From Litorimonas cladophorae (GTDB lineage Bacteria > Pseudomonadota > Alphaproteobacteria > Caulobacterales > Maricaulaceae): DNA of 64,000 nucleotides. Each line of letters opens with the position of its first letter. Within the stretch, counting starts at the first letter, position 1. The stretch spans positions 558,001 through 622,000 of the forward strand of contig NZ_BMYV01000001.1 in assembly GCF_014652455.1 (NCBI RefSeq), written 5' to 3'. The notes beneath the pieces are model-generated. The model did no database searches and was not told where the DNA came from. It worked only from the letters and a program-made list of their open reading frames with translations. The translations under genes and the position numbers were made by a program. This document shows positions 4,759 to 16,724 of this stretch, in pieces.

Positions 4759-6135
4759 ATGCAGTATTTGCCCATACACTTTGATACCCGCGGGGCCAAT
4801 ATATTGGTCGTCGGCGGCGGTCCTGCTGCAGAAGCTAAGCTTCGGACTTTACTTAAGACTGAGGCCAACTTGATTGTCGTGGACACGTCAGTTGGTCCAG
4901 AGGTCTCGCGTTGGGCGTCCCAAGGAAAACTTAATTGGGAAAAGCGTGACTATAGAGAATCGGATCTCGATGGTGCTTCGTTAGTTTACGCGGCTACAGA
5001 GGACGATGCATTAAACGCGACTATCGCCGCGTCCGCAACTGCACGACAAATTCCGGTAAATGCAGCGGATCAAAAAGCAGCCTGTCGATTTATCACCCCC
5101 GCTTTGGTCGATCGGGCTCCCGTACTCGTGTCCATCGGAACAGAGGGTACGAGCCCCGCTCTCGCCCGTGCGTTAAAAGCTGAATTGGAAACGATCCTGC
5201 CGCCCGAAACGGGCGCATTTGCGTTGAAGACCAAAGTGTTGAGAGAAAAAGTTAAGGCGCTATTGCCAGATCTCGCTGATCGTCAAAGATTCTGGGCTCG
5301 AATTTTGGGAGGCAAAGACCTGAGCGCGCAGCTCCGCGTTTCGCCAGAAGGTCTAGAGTCCCAGGTTGAAATGGAGCTTGCAGGCCAAGATGACATCGCG
5401 GGCAAGGTGCTCCTAGTGGGAGCAGGGCCTGGGGACCCGGATATGCTGACCACGGCTGCGAGACGGGCGCTACATGCGGCCGACGTCATTGTCTATGACC
5501 GCCTTGTGAGTGACGGCGTGCTTGAGCTTGGGCGTCGGGAAGCCGAATATATTTATGTCGGCAAAACACCCGGTGAGCCGTCCATTGGCCAGACGGCAAT
5601 CAATCAAATTTTGATCGACAAGGCCACGGAAGGACTGTCTGTTGTTCGTTTGAAGTCTGGCGATCCCTTGATTTTTGGTCGTGCCGATGAGGAAATTGAC
5701 GCGCTGTCTGCGCTGGATATTCCTGTGCAAATCATCCCGGGTATCACATCTGCCGCCGCGGCCGCCGCTGCTATAAACGCTTCGCTGACAACCCGCGGGA
5801 CAAACAGAGCTGTTTCTTTATTGACGGGTCATGATGCGAAAGGCTTCGCTGAACAGGACTGGGCATCCTTGGCTAGACCCGGCGGACGGGCTGCCGTCTA
5901 TATGGGTGTCGGTGCATCTAGATTTATTCAAGGGCGACTGATGTTGCACGGTGCGGAAGGTGATCGACCCGTAACAGTCGTCGAAAATGCCTCTCGGCCT
6001 AATCAAATCATTACATATACGACGTTGCGTAAGTTACCTGACGACATAGCAGCAGCGGGCATTAAAGGCCCTGCCATATTGTTGATCGGCTACGCTGAGC
6101 GTGAAACGATTTCTTCAGAAAGACTGGCCGTATGA
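4759..6135 (+). CDS. cysG: Siroheme synthase CysG (bifunctional)
   Basis: 458 residues, full length for the fused enzyme. Residues 1 to about 210 are the precorrin-2 dehydrogenase/sirohydrochlorin ferrochelatase part (dinucleotide site ILVVGGGPAAEAKLRTLL). Residues from about 215 are the SAM-dependent uroporphyrinogen III methyltransferase (VLLVGAGPGDPDMLTTAARRAL, then LKSGDPLIFGR and PGITSAAAAAA). It makes siroheme, the cofactor of the sulfite reductase encoded two genes downstream. It is the first gene of the sulfite operon and overlaps the DUF2849 gene by four bases. Confidence 0.95.
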   Translation: MQYLPIHFDTRGANILVVGGGPAAEAKLRTLLKTEANLIVVDTSVGPEVSRWASQGKLNWEKRDYRESDLDGASLVYAATEDDALNATIAASATARQIPVNAADQKAACRFITPALVDRAPVLVSIGTEGTSPALARALKAELETILPPETGAFALKTKVLREKVKALLPDLADRQRFWARILGGKDLSAQLRVSPEGLESQVEMELAGQDDIAGKVLLVGAGPGDPDMLTTAARRALHAADVIVYDRLVSDGVLELGRREAEYIYVGKTPGEPSIGQTAINQILIDKATEGLSVVRLKSGDPLIFGRADEEIDALSALDIPVQIIPGITSAAAAAAAINASLTTRGTNRAVSLLTGHDAKGFAEQDWASLARPGGRAAVYMGVGASRFIQGRLMLHGAEGDRPVTVVENASRPNQIITYTTLRKLPDDIAAAGIKGPAILLIGYAERETISSERLAV

Positions 6136-6443
6136 GCACGTTGAAACATAAGGGCAAAGGCCCCCAATCAATGACCGCGAATGAGCTGCGAGATGGTTTC
6201 AGTGTCTGGCTGGATGAAAATTTGGATTGGACACGCGACTTCTCAAAAGCGCTGCGCACAGAAGACCAAGACTTGATCGATCGCATGCACCTCCGTGCAG
6301 AAACCGATGAGAAGTCCAATTTGGTCGTCGGCATTTATTTCATCGACATCGAGCCAGACACAGGCCTGCCTGCCCGTTATCGCGAGAAATTTCGCGTGAA
6401 CGGCCCATCTTATGACACAGCAGATTTGCTGGAGACCAACTAA
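6132..6443 (+). CDS. DUF2849 protein of the sulfite reductase operon
   Basis: 103 residues, small and soluble. It starts at an ATG overlapping the cysG stop and ends one base into the start of cysI. Small DUF2849 proteins are repeatedly found just upstream of the cysI-type reductase in alphaproteobacteria, and this position matches. The sequence has a helical middle (LRDGFSVWLDENLDWTRDFSKAL) and a beta-rich end, with no cysteines or known catalytic motif. The biochemical role is unknown; an accessory function for siroheme delivery or reductase assembly is only a guess. Confidence 0.8.
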   Translation: MSTLKHKGKGPQSMTANELRDGFSVWLDENLDWTRDFSKALRTEDQDLIDRMHLRAETDEKSNLVVGIYFIDIEPDTGLPARYREKFRVNGPSYDTADLLETN

Positions 6444-9549: not shown

Positions 9550-10140
9550 TCAGTGACGACGTTTTAGCTCTGCGACGACGGCATCTAGTTTTAGGTCTTT
9601 CGCCGCCAATAAAACCAACGTGTGATAAATCAAATCTGCGGCTTCGCTCACCAACTTATCATCGGTTTCGGCAACAGCGGCGAGGGCGGTTTCTACGCCC
9701 TCTTCCCCGACCTTCTGCGCGGCGCGGCGGAGAGGGCCATGGAGGAGTTGCGCCGTATAGGAGCTTTCAGGATCGGCTGTTTTTCGGCCTTCGATCAAGG
9801 TCTCCAGATAGGATAAAAACCCGACTCCTTCTGCCCCCTCACTACCGAAACAGGAGACTGTGCCTTCATGGCAAGTTGGACCCGTGGGTTTCGCTTTGAC
9901 GAGAAGTGTATCGCGATCGCAATCGACAATCATACTGACTAGGGCGAGAGTGTTTCCACTCGTTTCGCCTTTTGTCCAAAGTGTTTTCCGAGACCGGCTG
10001 TAGAATGTGACCAAACCTGTCGCATTTGTTTTAGAAACAGATTCAGCGTTCATATAGCCCAGCATTAAAACCTGAAGCGTGTCCGCGTCTTGAACAATGG
10101 CAGGCGCCAAGCCGCCGCCTTTTTCAAAATCAATTTTCAC
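9550..10140 (-). CDS. hisIE: Bifunctional PRA-CH/PRA-PH, HisIE
   Basis: 196 residues, last gene of the his operon. Residues 1 to about 105 are phosphoribosyl-AMP cyclohydrolase ([23 protein letters not shown], metal site [20 protein letters not shown]). Residues from about 108 are phosphoribosyl-ATP pyrophosphohydrolase ([16 protein letters not shown] and [14 protein letters not shown]). Together they carry out steps 2 and 3 of histidine synthesis. Many alphaproteobacteria keep hisI and hisE separate, so the fused form here is worth noting. It overlaps hisF by four bases. Confidence 0.93.
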
Positions 10141-10904
10141 AATCGCACCTCTATGCCCGCGCGTCGCAAGTCCGCCTTTAGATCAGGAATGGCGATCACG
10201 GATTTATGAAAGACCGACGCCGCTAATGCGCCGTCGACATTCGCTCGTTTGAAGACGTCCTCAAAATGTTCTGTGGCACCCGCACCGCCAGAGGCAATAA
10301 GCGGGACTTCGCAAACTGCGCGAACGGCCTTGAGCTGCTCAAGGTCATAGCCTTTTCGCACACCATCTCGGTTCATGCAGTTTAAAACGATTTCGCCTGC
10401 ACCGCGCTGCACAACATCTTGAACCCAATCTAAGGTGAGGCGTCCTGTCTCGCGGGTTTTATCGGGATCACCCGTATGGGATTTGACGCGGTAGATTTCC
10501 CCATCCGCGAAGGTGTCAATGCCGACCACAATGCATTGTACGCCATAGGCGTCACTTAATTCATTGATAAGATCGGGACGCATGAGAGCAGGAGAATTTA
10601 CGCTGATTTTATCCGCGCCTGCGGCGAGTCGTGCACCTGCTGCCTCGACGGTTTTAATGCCGCCAGCAACACAAAAGGGAATGTCGAGTGCGCGGCTGAC
10701 TTTGCCGACCCATTCAGGGCTAACCGTGCGATCATCAACCGATGCTGTGATGTCGTAAAATACGAGCTCATCGGCACCCTCATCACGATAACGCAATGCT
10801 AGATCAATAATATCGCCAACATCTTCATGGTTTCGAAATTGAACGCCTTTGACCACTCGCCCATCGCGAACATCTAAACAGGGAATGATGCGACGTGTTA
10901 GCAT
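10137..10904 (-). CDS. hisF: Imidazole glycerol phosphate synthase, cyclase subunit
   Basis: 255 residues, a (beta-alpha)8 barrel. The catalytic acids are D11 ([15 protein letters not shown]) and D130 ([10 protein letters not shown]). It pairs with HisH to make imidazole glycerol phosphate and AICAR from PRFAR and glutamine-derived ammonia. It overlaps hisA by seven bases and hisIE by four, so translation along the operon is probably coupled. Confidence 0.96.
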
Positions 10905-11623
10905 TGGATGGCTTCGGGCAGAGTAAATGCGCCTTCATAAAGCGCTTTTCCGATGATGATCCCATAGGGGTCTATCGCTTTTAAATCGCGAACGTGATCA
11001 AGGGTTCCAACGCCGCCCGAGGAGATCAAATCAAGTGAGGGGAACTCGGACTGGATCCGCTTATAGAGGTCAATGTTCCCGCCGGTCTGCATTCCGTCGC
11101 GACCAATGTCGGTGACCAAGATCGTTTTAAGCCCTGACCCCAAATAGTCACCAATTACGTCCCAAATCGTTTTATTCGAGGCTTCGGTCCAGCCTTTTGT
11201 TGCGGGCCGAAATTCGCCGTCTTCGCCTTGATTGACATCCAAGGCGAGACAGATTGCATCTGGCCCCACATCCCGCAGCCAATGCTTGACCATTTGAGGA
11301 TTCGTGACGGCTAGGGAGCCAATGACGACGCGATTAACGCCGCCTTCCAGCAGTCTTTTGATCTGAGCAAGATCGCGCAAGCCTCCACCCGTCTGGACCT
11401 TTATGTCGGCTGAATTGGCAATCTTCAGAATTAAATCAGATTGCTCGGCTTGGCCGTTCTTTGCGCCGTCAAGGTCTACAATATGCATCCATTCGGCGCC
11501 CGCTGAGGCGTAATTATTGGCGACTTCGATGGGGTCAGTCGCATAATTGGTTCGCGCAGCAAAATCACCTTTCAGTAATCTCACGCATCCGCCGTCCATC
11601 AAATCCATTGCTGGGAATATCAT
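10898..11623 (-). CDS. hisA: Phosphoribosylformimino-AICAR-phosphate isomerase HisA
   Basis: 241 residues from ATG 11623, whose ATGA overlaps the hisH stop. Upstream in-frame codons lie inside hisH and are not used. The barrel starts with [19 protein letters not shown] (catalytic Asp at residue 7), and the second catalytic Asp is in [14 protein letters not shown]. It performs the Amadori rearrangement of ProFAR to PRFAR, step 4 of histidine synthesis. Confidence 0.95.
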
Positions 11624-12219
11624 AGGTTTATGTCCAAAAAGTTCTTGAGGATCAGCGCGCCTGTTTTGGAACTTCGTTCCGGATGGAACTGACAGCCCCA
11701 TACATTCTTACTGCGCGTGATCGCCGTAAAAGCCGAACCATATTCAGCTGTCATAAGCGTGCTGTCCGAGACGAAGGCTGCATAGGAATGCACAAAATAA
11801 GCGTAATCACCGTCCGAGATACCGTTTAGTAGCGGATCTTGCTTCACAGTTTGCAAGGTATTCCATCCCATATGGGGCGCGGGAAGATCGCCAGTTTGCA
11901 GTTTTTCGATGGTGCCAGGAATGAGGCCTAACCCCTCAACGGTTTCACCGCCTTCTTCCAGAGTTTCATACAAAAGCTGCATACCGAGACATATACCTAT
12001 GACGGGTTGTTTTAGCGATTGAAGTACAGGCCCTAGGCCCTTGGCATGAATGCCCCGCATCGCAAAGGGTGCTGAGCCAACGCCTGGTAGAACCACTCGC
12101 TCGGCGGATAGAATGGTCACAGGATCATCACTGACGAGCGGCTCTATACCCAAACGTTCAAAAGCATACTGTACGGAGGCTAAATTTGCGCAGCCTGTAT
12201 CGACAATTACAAGGCTCAC
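11620..12219 (-). CDS. hisH: Imidazole glycerol phosphate synthase, glutaminase subunit
   Basis: 199 residues, class I glutamine amidotransferase. The nucleophile is Cys77 (VIGICLGMQLLYE) and the His/Glu of the triad are in the C-terminal CQFHPERSSKTG. It supplies ammonia to HisF. It overlaps hisA by four bases and the HisC-HisB fusion gene by four. Confidence 0.96.
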   Translation of the reverse strand: MSLVIVDTGCANLASVQYAFERLGIEPLVSDDPVTILSAERVVLPGVGSAPFAMRGIHAKGLGPVLQSLKQPVIGICLGMQLLYETLEEGGETVEGLGLIPGTIEKLQTGDLPAPHMGWNTLQTVKQDPLLNGISDGDYAYFVHSYAAFVSDSTLMTAEYGSAFTAITRSKNVWGCQFHPERSSKTGALILKNFLDINL

Positions 12220-13853
12220 AATGTACCTTTGGTCGATGGAATATCACTGCCCGATACCGCAAGGGCCGGCCGCAAAGCCCGACCTACACCTTTAAAACAG
12301 GCTTCGATCATGTGGTGTGAGTTATCGCCCTTAACATCAACATGAATTGCCGCGCCTAGCGTCTGCGCGAGGCTTTCAAAAAAGTGCGGGCACATTTCGA
12401 CAGGGAAGTCTCCAACATGATCTGTTGGAAACTTACCGTTGAAGACGGCAGCAGGGCGTCCTGACAAATCAATCGCAACTTGGGCTTGGGTTTCATCCAT
12501 CGGAATTACATAGCCATAACGCCCAATGCCCGCTTTATCACCCAAGGCTGATTTCAACGCTGAACCAAAGGCCAACGCTGTGTCCTCCACCGTGTGGTGA
12601 GCATCAATATGAAGGTCACCCTCGCAGGACATCGTTAGGCCAAAGCCGCCATGCTTCGAAATTTGCTCCAGCATGTGATCATAAAACCCGATGCCAGTTT
12701 CGATATGAGTTTGCAAAGGGTCATCCAGATTGACGCGAACGGAAATGTCCGTCTCATTCGTCTTGCGGAACATCTCACCGACACGGTCCGCATTCTTCGG
12801 TATGTCCACCACACCAAATGCCTGCAGGGCGACTGTGTTTTCTTTGGGGGAGCCAATAGAAATCCGCATACGCCCTGTTGTCGAACGATAGTCTCTAATT
12901 TTGACGTTGAACTGACGCAGCTGGGCAAGCAAAGCCGTTTCGTCTTTAACGTCAAGTAGGAGAAAGTTTGCATCTGAAGGGAATACTTTATTCACATAGG
13001 CAGAGCGTTTTAGGCCTTCAGCCATTCGAGCGCGTTCAGATATCGTTTCCGCTAGGCGCTGCGCGTGAACCGACATTGCCGACGGCGCAAGCGCGTTCAG
13101 AATGGTTGTCTCAACAGGGCGTGCAATCGGGTAGGGCGGGAGCACCTTCAGCAAGAGGTCTATGATCTTTGGGTCAGCTAGCAAAGCGCCGCCTCGGACG
13201 CCTGCGAGAGCAAAAGCTTTAGACAAGGTACGAAGTACGACGAGATTTGGCACAGTGCCGACTTGATCCGAAAGACTCTCTTGGTCGGAGAACTCAATAT
13301 AGGCCTCGTCCACGACAATCAGTGTTTCTGGCAGCTCCGAACAAACCTGAAGAATAGCGGCGCGGGTCAGACTATTGCCTGTTGGGTTATTGGGGGAACA
13401 GAGAAATACCATTTTGACCGAGGAATGACGCCCCGCCTCGATCACCGCAGGAATATCCCATTCATAGGTTTCGCTTAAAGAAACTTCGACAATTCCCGCG
13501 CCTTGGATATCTGCACAGGTCTTATAATATCCAAACGTAGGCGGGCATGTGAGAATATTGTCTACGCCTGTTTCGCAAAAGGCGCGTAGCAAGCATTCAA
13601 TACCTTCATCGGCGCCGCGACCAACCATGATTTGATCGGGCTGAACACCGTAGATATCTGAGAGACGTCGGACCAATTTTTCAGGCTGCTGAGACGGATA
13701 TCTGTTATATTCTGATGCGCCAACAACTGGCGGCGGAGCATATGGGTTTTCGTTAGCGTCCAAGTGAAGCGCATCCGTCGCGCCACCTCTCGCCGAATAA
13801 GGTGACATCGCAACGATCGCTTTACGAGCTATGCTTTCAGGCCAATTTGTCAT
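12216..13853 (-). CDS. HisC-HisB fusion: histidinol-phosphate aminotransferase and IGP dehydratase
   Basis: 545 residues in one open frame. Residues 1 to about 352 are a HisC class II aminotransferase: LDANENPYAPP, CSPNNPTG, VDEAYIEF, and the PLP-binding Lys212 in RTLSKAFALAGVRGG. A short linker (about 353-363) leads to HisB: ETGIGFYDHMLEQISKHG, the manganese-binding DAHHTVEDTALAFG, and the second HHxxE site GDNSHHMIEACFKG, ending at 545. Both halves keep their active-site residues. The enzymes are steps 6 (dehydratase) and 7 (transaminase), so consecutive reactions sit on one chain. This differs from the enterobacterial HisB, which fuses the dehydratase to a phosphatase. It overlaps hisD and hisH by four bases each. 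Confidence 0.93.
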   Translation of the reverse strand: MTNWPESIARKAIVAMSPYSARGGATDALHLDANENPYAPPPVVGASEYNRYPSQQPEKLVRRLSDIYGVQPDQIMVGRGADEGIECLLRAFCETGVDNILTCPPTFGYYKTCADIQGAGIVEVSLSETYEWDIPAVIEAGRHSSVKMVFLCSPNNPTGNSLTRAAILQVCSELPETLIVVDEAYIEFSDQESLSDQVGTVPNLVVLRTLSKAFALAGVRGGALLADPKIIDLLLKVLPPYPIARPVETTILNALAPSAMSVHAQRLAETISERARMAEGLKRSAYVNKVFPSDANFLLLDVKDETALLAQLRQFNVKIRDYRSTTGRMRISIGSPKENTVALQAFGVVDIPKNADRVGEMFRKTNETDISVRVNLDDPLQTHIETGIGFYDHMLEQISKHGGFGLTMSCEGDLHIDAHHTVEDTALAFGSALKSALGDKAGIGRYGYVIPMDETQAQVAIDLSGRPAAVFNGKFPTDHVGDFPVEMCPHFFESLAQTLGAAIHVDVKGDNSHHMIEACFKGVGRALRPALAVSGSDIPSTKGTL

Positions 13854-15148
13854 TTCAGCGCCTCCAAGCGCAGGGTGACCGCATTCTTATGCGCATCAAG
13901 CCCTTCCATTTCAGCCAGACGTTCAACAACGGGACCAAGACGTTTAAGGCCTTTTTTTGTGAGACGTTGAATTGAGATGAATTTCAAAAAACTATTCAGT
14001 GTCACGCCAGAATAAGCGCGTGCCGCACCATAGGTTGGCAGCGTGTGGTTTGTGCCACTGGCGTAATCACCCACGCTCTCTGGTGTCCAAGGGCCTACGA
14101 AAATTGAACCCGCGTGGCGAATGGCCCCGACATAGGTTTCAGGTCTGCGTAGCTGAACGATTAAATGCTCGGGAGCATATCGGTTCACAATGTCAATAAT
14201 GTCTGATCGGTCTTCCGCGATGAACATCCGCCCGTAGCCTAAAGACTCGCGCGCAATTTTTGCACGGGATAATGTCTCCAGCTGCTTTTCAATCTCAGCT
14301 TCGACGGCATCTGCAATGGCTTGGTTTTCCGCGACACATACAACTTGAGCCACAGTATCGTGTTCGGCTTGGCTAAGTAAATCTGAGGCCACAAAAGCTG
14401 GGTTGGCCGAACTGTCGGCTAAAACCATGGCTTCAGAAGGCCCCGCAGGCATATCGATCGCTGGACCGCCCGCCTCTTGGGCAACTAATGATTTAGCGGC
14501 GGCGACCCACGCATTACCTGGTCCGAAAATCTTGTCGCACTTTGGAATGGTTTCTGTGCCATAGGCCAATGCGCCGATCGCTTGGGCTCCACCCACAGCG
14601 AACAAACGCGTGACTTTACAACGAAAAGCGGCAGCCAAGATCATCGGGTTGACTTTGCCGTCTTTGCCAGGAGGCGTGACGACAATTCGGTTTTGAACGC
14701 CCGCGACTTTAGCCGGTACAGATAGCATGAGCAGGGTAGAGACTAGAGGCGCAGTTCCACCAGGTACATAAAGGCCCGCCGTTTCTATCGCGCGAGCTTC
14801 ACGTCGACAGATAACGCCTGGTTCAGTTTCAACTTCGATGGGCGAAGGGATTTGGGCTTTGTGAAATCGTTTTATATTTCTTCGAGCCCGCTCGATCACC
14901 GCTTGATCTGCAGCGGAGAGGGCGTCCCAAGCAGCCTTCATTGCAGATGCAGAGACTTCGAGCGCATCAAGCTCGACACCATCGAACTTCTGCGTAAAGC
15001 GCAAAAGCGCTTCGTTACCGTTGAGCTTAACGTCGGACAAAATGGTTTTTACGCCATCAATTAAAGTCGCATCGGAAATCGCCGCGGGACGAGCGAGGGC
15101 GGTAATCCGCTCCGAAGCTGTAAGGTTTATCCAATCAAAGCGCTGCAT
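13850..15148 (-). CDS. hisD: Histidinol dehydrogenase
   Basis: 432 residues. It oxidises histidinol to histidine in two NAD+-dependent steps. Visible features are GPGNAWVAAAK, the zinc-region AEHDTVAQVV, the catalytic segment YAPEHLIVQL and NHTLPTYGAARAYSGV near the C-terminus. One-base overlap with hisG and four-base overlap with the HisC-HisB gene. Confidence 0.96.
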   Translation of the reverse strand: MQRFDWINLTASERITALARPAAISDATLIDGVKTILSDVKLNGNEALLRFTQKFDGVELDALEVSASAMKAAWDALSAADQAVIERARRNIKRFHKAQIPSPIEVETEPGVICRREARAIETAGLYVPGGTAPLVSTLLMLSVPAKVAGVQNRIVVTPPGKDGKVNPMILAAAFRCKVTRLFAVGGAQAIGALAYGTETIPKCDKIFGPGNAWVAAAKSLVAQEAGGPAIDMPAGPSEAMVLADSSANPAFVASDLLSQAEHDTVAQVVCVAENQAIADAVEAEIEKQLETLSRAKIARESLGYGRMFIAEDRSDIIDIVNRYAPEHLIVQLRRPETYVGAIRHAGSIFVGPWTPESVGDYASGTNHTLPTYGAARAYSGVTLNSFLKFISIQRLTKKGLKRLGPVVERLAEMEGLDAHKNAVTLRLEALK

Positions 15149-16032
15149 TAGCTCATCATCTTCTCAATAGGTAGAACGAGGATGGCACGTGCGCCTAGTG
15201 CTTTCAGGCCTTCCAGCGTCTCCCAGAAGACCTTTTCCGTACAGACAGCCTGCATGGCCACGAGGTCGCCTTGGCCTGCGAGCGGCATAATCGTGGGTGC
15301 GTCGGATCCAGGTAGAAGGTCTGTGATTGCTTCAATCGCATCTTTTGGGGCGTTGAGCATGATGTATTTCGTTTCCGCCGATTTTAAAACGCCGTCAATT
15401 CGGTTCATCAACTTGGCAAGAATATCGGCTTTTGCGGGCGAGAGCTCTCGATCCGATTGGATCAGAACGGCTTCGCTTTCTAATATCGTTTCAAATGCAG
15501 CAAGGCCATTTGCCTCAAGGGTCGCACCAGAAGAAACAAGATCACAGATACTTTCGGCAATCCCGATAGATGGCGCAAGTTCGACAGCGCCCTTCATCTC
15601 AACCAGTTTTGCATCCAAACCTTGTTCAGCAAGATACCGTGCAGTGACACCCGGGTATGTAGTGGCGATTCGTGTTCCGTTCAGGTCCGCAGGCGACTGG
15701 ACTTTTCCAGTAGTGCTGGCGGCCAGACATAGTTTGCAACGCGAAAATCCAAGTCGCATCGTGATCTTAGCATTCAGCGGAGACTTCGAACTTAGCTGTT
15801 CTTCTACCAGCACATTCTCGCCGACGATCCCAATATCGGATGCGTTATTCGCGACAAATGAAGGAATATCGTCGTCACGAACGAGCAGCAAATCAACAGG
15901 CATGTTCTTTACGCGCGCCAGCAGCCCGCCCCCACGGATCGAGAATCGTAGACCGCATTTTCGCAGTAGATCAAAGCTATCTTCGGCCAAGCGGCCCTTT
16001 TTTTGGAGAGATATCCGTAAGCGGTCGGTCAT
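15148..16032 (-). CDS. hisG: ATP phosphoribosyltransferase HisG, long form
   Basis: 294 residues. The first enzyme of the pathway, condensing ATP and PRPP. The PRPP-binding loop is in DLVSSGATLEANGL, with GTRIATTYPGVTARYL before it. The C-terminal part from about residue 215 (PTIMPLAGQGDLVAMQAV ... ILVLPIEKM) is the histidine-sensing domain of the long form, so a separate HisZ regulatory subunit should not be needed. It overlaps the TrpR-like gene by one base. Confidence 0.95.
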   Translation of the reverse strand: MTDRLRISLQKKGRLAEDSFDLLRKCGLRFSIRGGGLLARVKNMPVDLLLVRDDDIPSFVANNASDIGIVGENVLVEEQLSSKSPLNAKITMRLGFSRCKLCLAASTTGKVQSPADLNGTRIATTYPGVTARYLAEQGLDAKLVEMKGAVELAPSIGIAESICDLVSSGATLEANGLAAFETILESEAVLIQSDRELSPAKADILAKLMNRIDGVLKSAETKYIMLNAPKDAIEAITDLLPGSDAPTIMPLAGQGDLVAMQAVCTEKVFWETLEGLKALGARAILVLPIEKMMS

Positions 16033-16316
16033 TATGTGTCTTTCTTACCAAGCACCGCACGGTAGCCGCCATGTGGTTCATCGCGCAGGAATCGCGCGAC
16101 CCTGCCAATTGTTGTTGTGGAAACGCCGGTGTCAGCCTGTATCTCGCGATAAGACTTTTCACCTTCGTCTAATATCTGCGCGACATGCCAACGCTCTGAC
16201 AAGGCCCGAAGTTCCGCAGGTGTGCATAGGTCGACCAAAAAGTCGCGCACGTCTTCCTGCGAGTCTAGTTGGGCTAAAGCAGCTTCGAGCTTAACGTATT
16301 TCGTTGACTGTTCCAT
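16032..16316 (-). CDS. TrpR/YerC-like repressor, first gene of the his operon
   Basis: 94 residues, all alpha-helical and similar in length to TrpR. The family signature is clear: LCTPAELRALSERWHVAQIL followed by the helix-turn-helix YREIQADTGVSTTTIGRVARFL at about residues 56-77. TrpR-like proteins of the YerC/HisR group control histidine genes in Firmicutes, so a histidine-responsive autorepressor is the obvious inference here. No Shine-Dalgarno can be placed before the ATG because an 18-bp palindrome directly abuts it, which suggests a leaderless or nearly leaderless transcript. Its stop overlaps hisG by one base. Confidence 0.9.
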   Translation of the reverse strand: MEQSTKYVKLEAALAQLDSQEDVRDFLVDLCTPAELRALSERWHVAQILDEGEKSYREIQADTGVSTTTIGRVARFLRDEPHGGYRAVLGKKDT

Positions 16317-16334
16317 GTGTTAGCGCGCTAATAC
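16317..16334. promoter_or_regulatory. TrpR-type operator abutting the first his start codon
   Basis: GTGTTAGCGCGCTAATAC is an 18-bp inverted repeat with a perfect 12-bp core (TTAGCGCGCTAA) and one mismatched pair further out. Its outline follows the Trp operator GTACTAGTTAACTAGTAC (GT, TAG, CTA, TAC in register). It lies between the presumed promoter and the start codon of the TrpR-like gene, where a bound dimer would block transcription. Confidence 0.7.
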
Positions 16335-16360
16335 ACTGGTACAGGCGAGCCACAAGTCAA
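16331..16360 (-). promoter_or_regulatory. Probable promoter of the his operon
   Basis: On the minus strand a TTGACT hexamer (16355-16360) is followed after 18 bases by GTGTAT (16331-16336), a weak -10 that overlaps the operator palindrome. Transcription would begin within a few bases of the ATG at 16316. The -35 is good and the -10 is poor, so this is a moderate call. Confidence 0.45.
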
Positions 16361-16393
16361 AAAATTATCAATTTGCAGTGAATGAGAGGAAAG

Positions 16394-16483
16394 TGGCGGG
16401 CGGGGAGGGATTCGAACCCCCGGTGGAGTTGCCCCCACGCCAGTTTTCAAGACTGGTGCATTCAACCGCTCTGCCACCCGCCC
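16394..16483 (-). tRNA. tRNA-Ser (UGA anticodon)
   Basis: 90 bases including an encoded CCA (complement of 16394-16396). The acceptor stem GGGCGGG (complement of 16477-16483) pairs with CCCGCCC (complement of 16398-16404), and the discriminator is G. The anticodon stem CCAGT/ACTGG encloses loop CTTGAAA, giving anticodon TGA at 16447-16449. A long variable arm (GGGGGCAACTCC region) and T-loop GGTTCGAATCC are present, as expected for serine. Confidence 0.95.
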
Positions 16484-16724
16484 ACGGGTACCTTGGTCAA
16501 TGAAGCGGCGACATATGACGTAATGCGCAGATGATCAAGTCACTTATTTCGTTAACTCCATGGTCACCTTGAATTTTGTTCTTCCGTTAGGCGTGTTTCC
16601 CAACCGGCATTTAAGGCTGCCCGTTTAGGTTACCAAACATAGAACGAAACTATGTGGACTGTCCAAGACATGACGCAATGGTCATTCGGCCTGTTTTGCA
16701 GGTTCACTTAAAGAGGTGTTTATA

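Follow-up and report, generated by a model that had tools for sequence, protein, structure and literature searches.

A TrpR-family HisR repressor at the head of the histidine operon of Litorimonas cladophorae, with a predicted operator abutting its start codon

The DNA analysed here, referred to as the window, is a 64-kb stretch (64,000 nucleotides) of the Litorimonas cladophorae genome. Its minus strand carries a histidine operon in the order hisR-hisG-hisD-hisCB-hisH-hisA-hisF-hisIE, the genes lying end to end with small overlaps (Table 1), and from this tight packing we infer that they would form one transcript. The true start of hisA is probably further in than that of the listed ORF, since the TIGR00007 match begins at residue 28. 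A gene for tRNA-Ser(TGA) precedes hisR. A scan of positions 16250-16500 gave no terminator-like site, and the tRNA-Ser and hisR are 77 bp apart; on both counts an attenuator-type his leader is unlikely there.

Table 1. Features of the hisR locus and the his operon; positions are those of the window.
Feature	Position	Strand	Remarks
tRNA-Ser(TGA)	16394..16483	minus	77 bp upstream of hisR, same strand
Candidate -35 hexamer, TTGTGG	16350..16355	minus	TTG 20 bp upstream of operator; 3/6 to TTGACA
Extra upstream half-site L′, TGTACCAG	16336..16343	minus	8/8 to TGTRYYAR; 8-bp register with core
HisR operator core (predicted), TGTATTAGCGCGCTAACACA	16316..16335	minus	last base is the A of the hisR ATG
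Candidate -10 hexamer, TATTAG	16328..16333	minus	placed by prediction inside the operator core; 16-bp spacing from TTG hexamer
hisR, TrpR-family (YerC/HisR branch) repressor	16032..16316	minus	94 aa, ATG at 16316
hisG, long form, HisG_C domain	15148..16032	minus	profile matches
hisD	13850..15148	minus	profile matches
hisC-hisB in-frame fusion, aminotransferase then IGP dehydratase	12216..13853	minus	545 aa
hisH	11620..12219	minus	profile match
hisA (listed ORF)	10898..11701	minus	TIGR00007 above cut-off
hisF	10137..10904	minus	TIGR00735 above cut-off
hisIE	9550..10140	minus	NF002747 above cut-off

HisR matches the Pfam family Trp_repressor (PF01371) at 5.9e-21 and the NCBIfam model TIGR02531 (YerC/YecD) with 54.5 bits, above the cut-off of 42.2. 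The score against the TrpR equivalog TIGR01321, 35.6 bits, falls below the cut-off of 67.25. An AlphaFold2 model (pLDDT 91.9) has the TrpR fold with a helix-turn-helix, and the best matches to it in the PDB are the Firmicutes TrpR-like proteins 3frw (TM 0.81), 3kor and 3g1c, followed by E. coli TrpR. No second PF01371 protein was found in the genome. The initial annotation, which saw a YerC/HisR-type relative of TrpR heading a complete his operon, is upheld by the TIGR02531 match and the gene order, and first place in the his operon is also what marks a proteobacterial HisR.

The residues of HisR aligned with Thr44, Arg54 and Arg84 of TrpR are invariant in 37 sequences selected from 117, and Val73 occupies the place of Gly85. 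Retention of the clamp residues together with valine in place of glycine would suit an amino-acid ligand other than tryptophan. The HisR of R. gnavus binds its operator in the presence of histidine and releases it in the absence of histidine (PMC9413887), and by analogy with this relative histidine may be the co-repressor here.

Within the family hisR was found in 123 of 137 genomes, and in 91 of the 95 good ones. The named relatives include uncultured Caulobacterales, Hellea, Robiginitomaculum, Oceanicaulis and similar. One locus was fetched per genome (n = 123) and hisG follows on the same strand in 122; the exception, L033, is on a contig that ends just behind hisR. At the level of the order hisR was found in 191 of 398 sampled genomes, a sample that takes in members of the family; 80 of the order-level matches listed were fetched, and at least six listed matches from family f3 are not among them. 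In a phylum sample of 398 genomes 33 match HisR, many of them weakly. Nine good matches in other classes (L252-L260) also show a match to hisG within the locus fetched, with a similar site ahead of hisR. Locus L251, from the same class but outside the order, shows no good operator or hisG match in the fetched stretch and was not used, nor were the weak phylum matches L261-L273, which appear to be TrpR relatives or chance matches. In this alphaproteobacterial order control by HisR is widespread and no oddity. The view that it was described mainly in Firmicutes, offered earlier as the novelty of the locus, is not supported: proteobacterial HisR was published in 2022 (PMC9413887), and hisR recurs widely in the family and order samples.

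That study, by Ashniev et al., assigns HisR to 51 genomes of Gammaproteobacteria and to 11 of Alphaproteobacteria (Rhodobacterales and Caulobacterales). HisR is mostly the first gene of the his operon there, with a site immediately upstream that has the TrpR-like motif TGTAnTArnnnnyTnTTACA (PMC9413887). The system in the window shares the protein family, the position of the gene and a site directly before hisR, and it is the proteobacterial HisR already described in outline by these authors. Two details of layout appear to go beyond the account in PMC9413887: the predicted operator abuts the ATG in a clade of seven genomes, and the operator seems to belong to a series of half-sites spaced in an 8-bp register, as against the 20-bp palindrome reported. 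In the main text of PMC9413887 the word leaderless is absent, and tandem refers only to His codons and T-boxes. Neither detail is described in the titles and abstract openings of the papers found on tandem Trp-type operators and on HisR in Caulobacterales.

The Firmicutes HisR (YerC) has in common with the protein studied here the family, the fold (3frw, 3kor, 3g1c) and the histidine operon as target. Its motif, cacTTTAnnnnnnTAAAgtg, is different, and in many lineages hisR is a separate target beside the his operon (Table 2 of PMC9413887). With E. coli TrpR, HisR shares the fold, the helix-turn-helix, a 20-bp site and the 8-bp register. It differs in the ligand pocket, at Val73, and unlike TrpR it heads its target operon, with one good site genome-wide.

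The predicted operator core pairs at nine of ten positions and is one of three 20-mers in the window that reach at least this level. The 18-bp inverted repeat within it (16317..16334) pairs at eight of nine and is one of eight 18-mers in the window with at least eight pairs. Palindromes this good are not rare in the window, and so the argument for an operator is conservation. A matrix search placed an operator-type site upstream of hisR in 121 of the 123 family loci. This count is partly circular, these same loci having served to train the matrix. Accepted sites score no lower than 16.8, whereas control stretches of equal length (240 nt), taken downstream inside genes of the same 123 loci, reach 3.1 at most. 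Two loci, L101 and L102 of genus g6, have no operator before hisR though hisG follows; four other fetched loci of that genus do have one. The inverted repeat, which had been picked out as resembling the Trp operator and directly abutting the start codon, is confirmed in place, and the scan of alphaproteobacterial his operons proposed at that stage recovered the same motif in the family loci just counted. Compared by eye with the published proteobacterial consensus, the left half of the operator fits fully, and the right half departs from the printed form at two places, or at one if the printed half mirrors the left.

A genome search with the 20-bp pattern returned the his site as the sole match without mismatch. 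The next matches have three mismatches, a level at which there are seven against eight for the reversed control on both strands, and these sites were rejected as members of a regulon because they are no more numerous than the control. With an 18-bp pattern the next best match has two mismatches and lies inside an ORF, near its end (L002); it was also rejected, as were the remaining matches at three mismatches, where the reversed control is the commoner (48 against 11 on each strand). Since a single TrpR-family protein and a single good site were found in the genome, we interpret HisR as an autorepressor that acts locally on the his operon. The second-best matrix match in the window, at 6129..6148, has three mismatches and scores 15.1 against 33.0 at the his site. 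It spans the junction of the ORFs 4759..6135 and 6132..6443 and is probably due to chance.

Promoter anatomy was compared in 120 loci, the 121 with an operator (L101 and L102 being dropped) less L058, to which no start was assigned. Start codons were taken by rule as the first ATG behind the operator, which misplaces some of them. Type A (n = 50) is defined by TATA one base after the operator, and the other 70 loci are type B. A T precedes the operator in 46 of 50 type A loci and exact TATATC follows it in 27 of 50. The predicted type A promoter is TTGTGT-16 bp-TATATC, in which the operator serves as the spacer. Type A loci have a Shine-Dalgarno-like stretch in 38 of 50 cases overall, and in 36 of 40 where the gap between operator and ATG is at least 26.

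In type B a TTG stands at -20 relative to the operator in 33 of 70 loci and at -21 in 11 of 70, together 44 of 70, whereas other positions average 1.7 each (highest 14, at -9). Anchored on the ATG instead, the best position reaches only 11. The promoter is thus tied to the operator rather than to the gene. Against this, 21 of 70 type B loci have no TTG at -19 to -22. A Shine-Dalgarno-like stretch occurs in none of the 16 type B loci with a gap of 3 or less, as against 24 of 54 with a larger gap. The gap itself is -1 or 0 in seven of the 120 loci, the window included, 2-3 in nine and at least 4 in 104, and the loci thus offer a natural series in which the operator slides from promoter spacer to start codon.

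The seven loci in which operator and ATG abut form one clade (support 96 in a quick FastTree tree, from which L033 was left out for want of HisG), set among relatives of the same genus with gaps of 11-18 nt. All seven have a TTG exactly 20 bp upstream of the operator. With a TTG there, the -10 element would fall within the operator, and at some 7 nt from -10 to start transcription would begin about 4-7 nt ahead of the ATG. The general promoter shape in Caulobacter is TTGAC and GCTANAWC. Against this promoter, a scan of 16250-16500 for E. coli-type promoters found none, where 0.2 were expected, and the candidate -35 and -10 hexamers of the window, TTGTGG and TATTAG, have only three and four of the six bases of the E. 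coli consensus. TTGACT at 16360-16355 was considered as the -35 element and set aside; it lies 21 bp from TATTAG, and a TTG is present there in two of the seven clade members as against seven of seven at -20.

An in-frame stop two or five codons upstream of the ATG in all seven abutting loci makes a start farther upstream impossible. A GTG start at codon 23 was dropped, as L10, which lies upstream of it, does not vary among the 37 aligned sequences. The seven abutting loci show no Shine-Dalgarno-like stretch, in agreement with the earlier remark that the palindrome leaves no room for a ribosome-binding site. The comparative promoter anatomy supports a very short hisR leader in this clade. A near-leaderless mRNA is likely on these grounds, and the mRNA may be strictly leaderless. 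In Caulobacter 375 leaderless mRNAs are reported, Shine-Dalgarno sequences stand at 24.6% of sites and initiation of the non-Shine-Dalgarno kind is common (PMC4117421); the 375 examples make leaderless translation plausible here. Nothing relevant was matched in the main text of PMC7200025, which deals with transcript data from a stalked budding relative.

Around the core a half-site matrix was scored at all offsets, the other offsets of the same loci serving as control. Upstream, the top-scoring half-site (L′) precedes the core by exactly 8 bp; downstream, the top score falls exactly at the mirror position (R′). For L′ and R′ the z-values are 9.3 and 8.6 in type B (n = 70) and 5.7 and 7.3 in type A (n = 50); they are descriptive and not probabilities because the loci are related, and for type A the information content at R′ and the R′ score are in part circular, as that type was defined by TATA at this place. 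Strict matches, of at least six of eight bases, number 27 of 70 (type B) and 16 of 50 (type A) for L′, and 27 of 70 and 1 of 50 for R′; offsets up to 2 bp to either side give counts of 0-7. L′ and R′ are again the top offsets, with z-values of 7.3 and 8.9, in the 40 loci (of 43 fetched) from families f4 and f5 whose site score is at least 14, and these loci had no part in building the matrix. Among the nine loci from other classes, L′ reaches at least six matches in six and so does R′. At a threshold of five or more matches L′ is present in all seven abutting loci, in four of the nine with a gap of 2-3 and in 53 of the remaining 104. L′ is common to both promoter types although they place the promoter differently, an argument for assigning L′ to the repressor rather than to the promoter. 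R′ is missing from the window (three of eight matches), since coding sequence occupies that place.

Half-sites in an 8-bp register are what a tandem operator of the TrpR type contains. In the E. coli trp operator halves are found at 0, +12 and +20 with 6, 7 and 7 of 8 matches, although left halves of six occur elsewhere in that stretch too, and a second 20-mer, shifted by 8 bp, matches at 16 of 20 as against 17 for the first. The title of PDB entry 1TRR refers to tandem binding in crystals of a trp repressor/operator half-site complex, and pairs of TrpR dimers bind in tandem on synthetic operators (PMC8745587). By comparison, HisR may bind its array in tandem as well. We propose, with somewhat less than even confidence, that proteobacterial HisR binds cooperatively as two or three dimers on an array of 28-36 bp in the 8-bp register, and that in the clade of the window this array, the core promoter and the start codon have merged into one. 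If so, some 50 bp would hold the -35 and -10 elements, the operator and the starts of transcription and translation, for a histidine operon on a leaderless mRNA. The predicted tandem binding could also decide the question of how repression by proteobacterial HisR is tuned from a single site.

Family f3 (L208-L244), perhaps Brevundimonas, is distinct in its operator. Of its 37 loci 33 fall below the threshold of the operator matrix, and nearly all of these have clearly different arms, GTTCCAC/GTGGAAC-like, beside the ATG. The commonest form is CGTTCCAC TGTTACAG CATA GTGGAACG. In the 33 loci L′ is the reverse complement of R in eight of eight bases in 17 and in at least six in 31. The ATG follows the operator by 2-6 nt in 32 of them and by 9 nt in L227, which resembles the f1 form more; none of the 33 has a Shine-Dalgarno-like stretch. 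The DNA specificity of HisR thus seems to have shifted along with the site, and if the merger proposed above is right the short gaps would make fusion of operator and start codon a repeated solution for HisR. A literature search found no papers on start sites in Brevundimonas.

Taken as a whole, the locus is best explained by HisR acting locally to repress the histidine operon that it heads, its own gene included, a reading we consider very probable. Besides the promoter evidence to the contrary given above, the two loci with hisR and no operator, the absence of R′ from the window and the nearby tRNA-Ser, which could feed read-through transcription, speak against it. When histidine is plentiful, as co-repressor by analogy with R. 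gnavus, dimers of HisR would bind the palindrome at 16316-16335 and probably also, next to one another, the extra half-site at 16336-16343. The site would cover the predicted -10 element and the start of transcription, such that RNA polymerase is kept off hisR and the his genes. As histidine falls HisR would leave and the promoter would fire from within the operator. In the clade of the window the operator appears to have slid onto the start codon, with the mRNA probably beginning about 4-7 nt before the ATG and hisR presumably translated without a Shine-Dalgarno sequence, in the manner of many Caulobacter mRNAs.

Other explanations deserve consideration. The leader might be an ordinary short one, with transcription starting inside or just before the operator and initiation of the non-Shine-Dalgarno kind, so that the abutting has no consequence for translation. 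The low share of Caulobacter sites with a Shine-Dalgarno sequence, 24.6% (PMC4117421), would suit this, as would genus g9, where the gap is 2 in six of nine loci and a TTG 35 bp upstream of the operator, again in six of nine, suggests a leader of about 20 nt. In the clade of the window, however, the TTG is at -20 in seven of seven, which predicts 4-7 nt, and we consider an ordinary leader there unlikely, if deserving of some weight. The his genes might instead be read mainly through from the tRNA-Ser promoter, with HisR acting as a roadblock and an mRNA that is processed after the tRNA and not leaderless. The tRNA gene is indeed close by, on the same strand and with no terminator-like site between, and a tRNA-Ser is upstream of hisR in 11 of 60 loci scanned out of the 123, the window among them. 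Yet the stretches fetched for the remaining 49, those of the abutting relatives L007 and L011 among them, do not contain it, and in L010 it is about 1.3 kb off, while the operator and TTG spacing stay fixed; L008, whose contig extends only about 280 nt upstream, is hard to judge. Read-through as the main source of the his mRNA is improbable.

HisR might also sense another amino acid, such as tryptophan, and co-regulate more than histidine synthesis. Membership of the TrpR family, the conserved clamp residues and a motif near the Trp operator are compatible with this. Against it, the operon contains only his genes behind hisR, every further genomic match to the 20-bp pattern has three mismatches, a level at which matches do not exceed the control (7 against 8), valine replaces the pocket glycine of TrpR, and histidine is the co-repressor of the R. 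gnavus HisR (PMC9413887). A different ligand is accordingly very hard to credit, and the local control of histidine synthesis by HisR is the reading that we retain.

A minor observation concerns the hisCB gene of the window (12216..13853, minus strand), a fusion without the HisN phosphatase half. The multifunctional his genes named in PMC8305728 include hisD, hisNB, hisHF, hisIE, HIS4 and HIS7, and its main text makes no mention of hisCB. Of 37 loci examined, both halves were found in 26, and hisC and hisB are fused in frame in every one of them.
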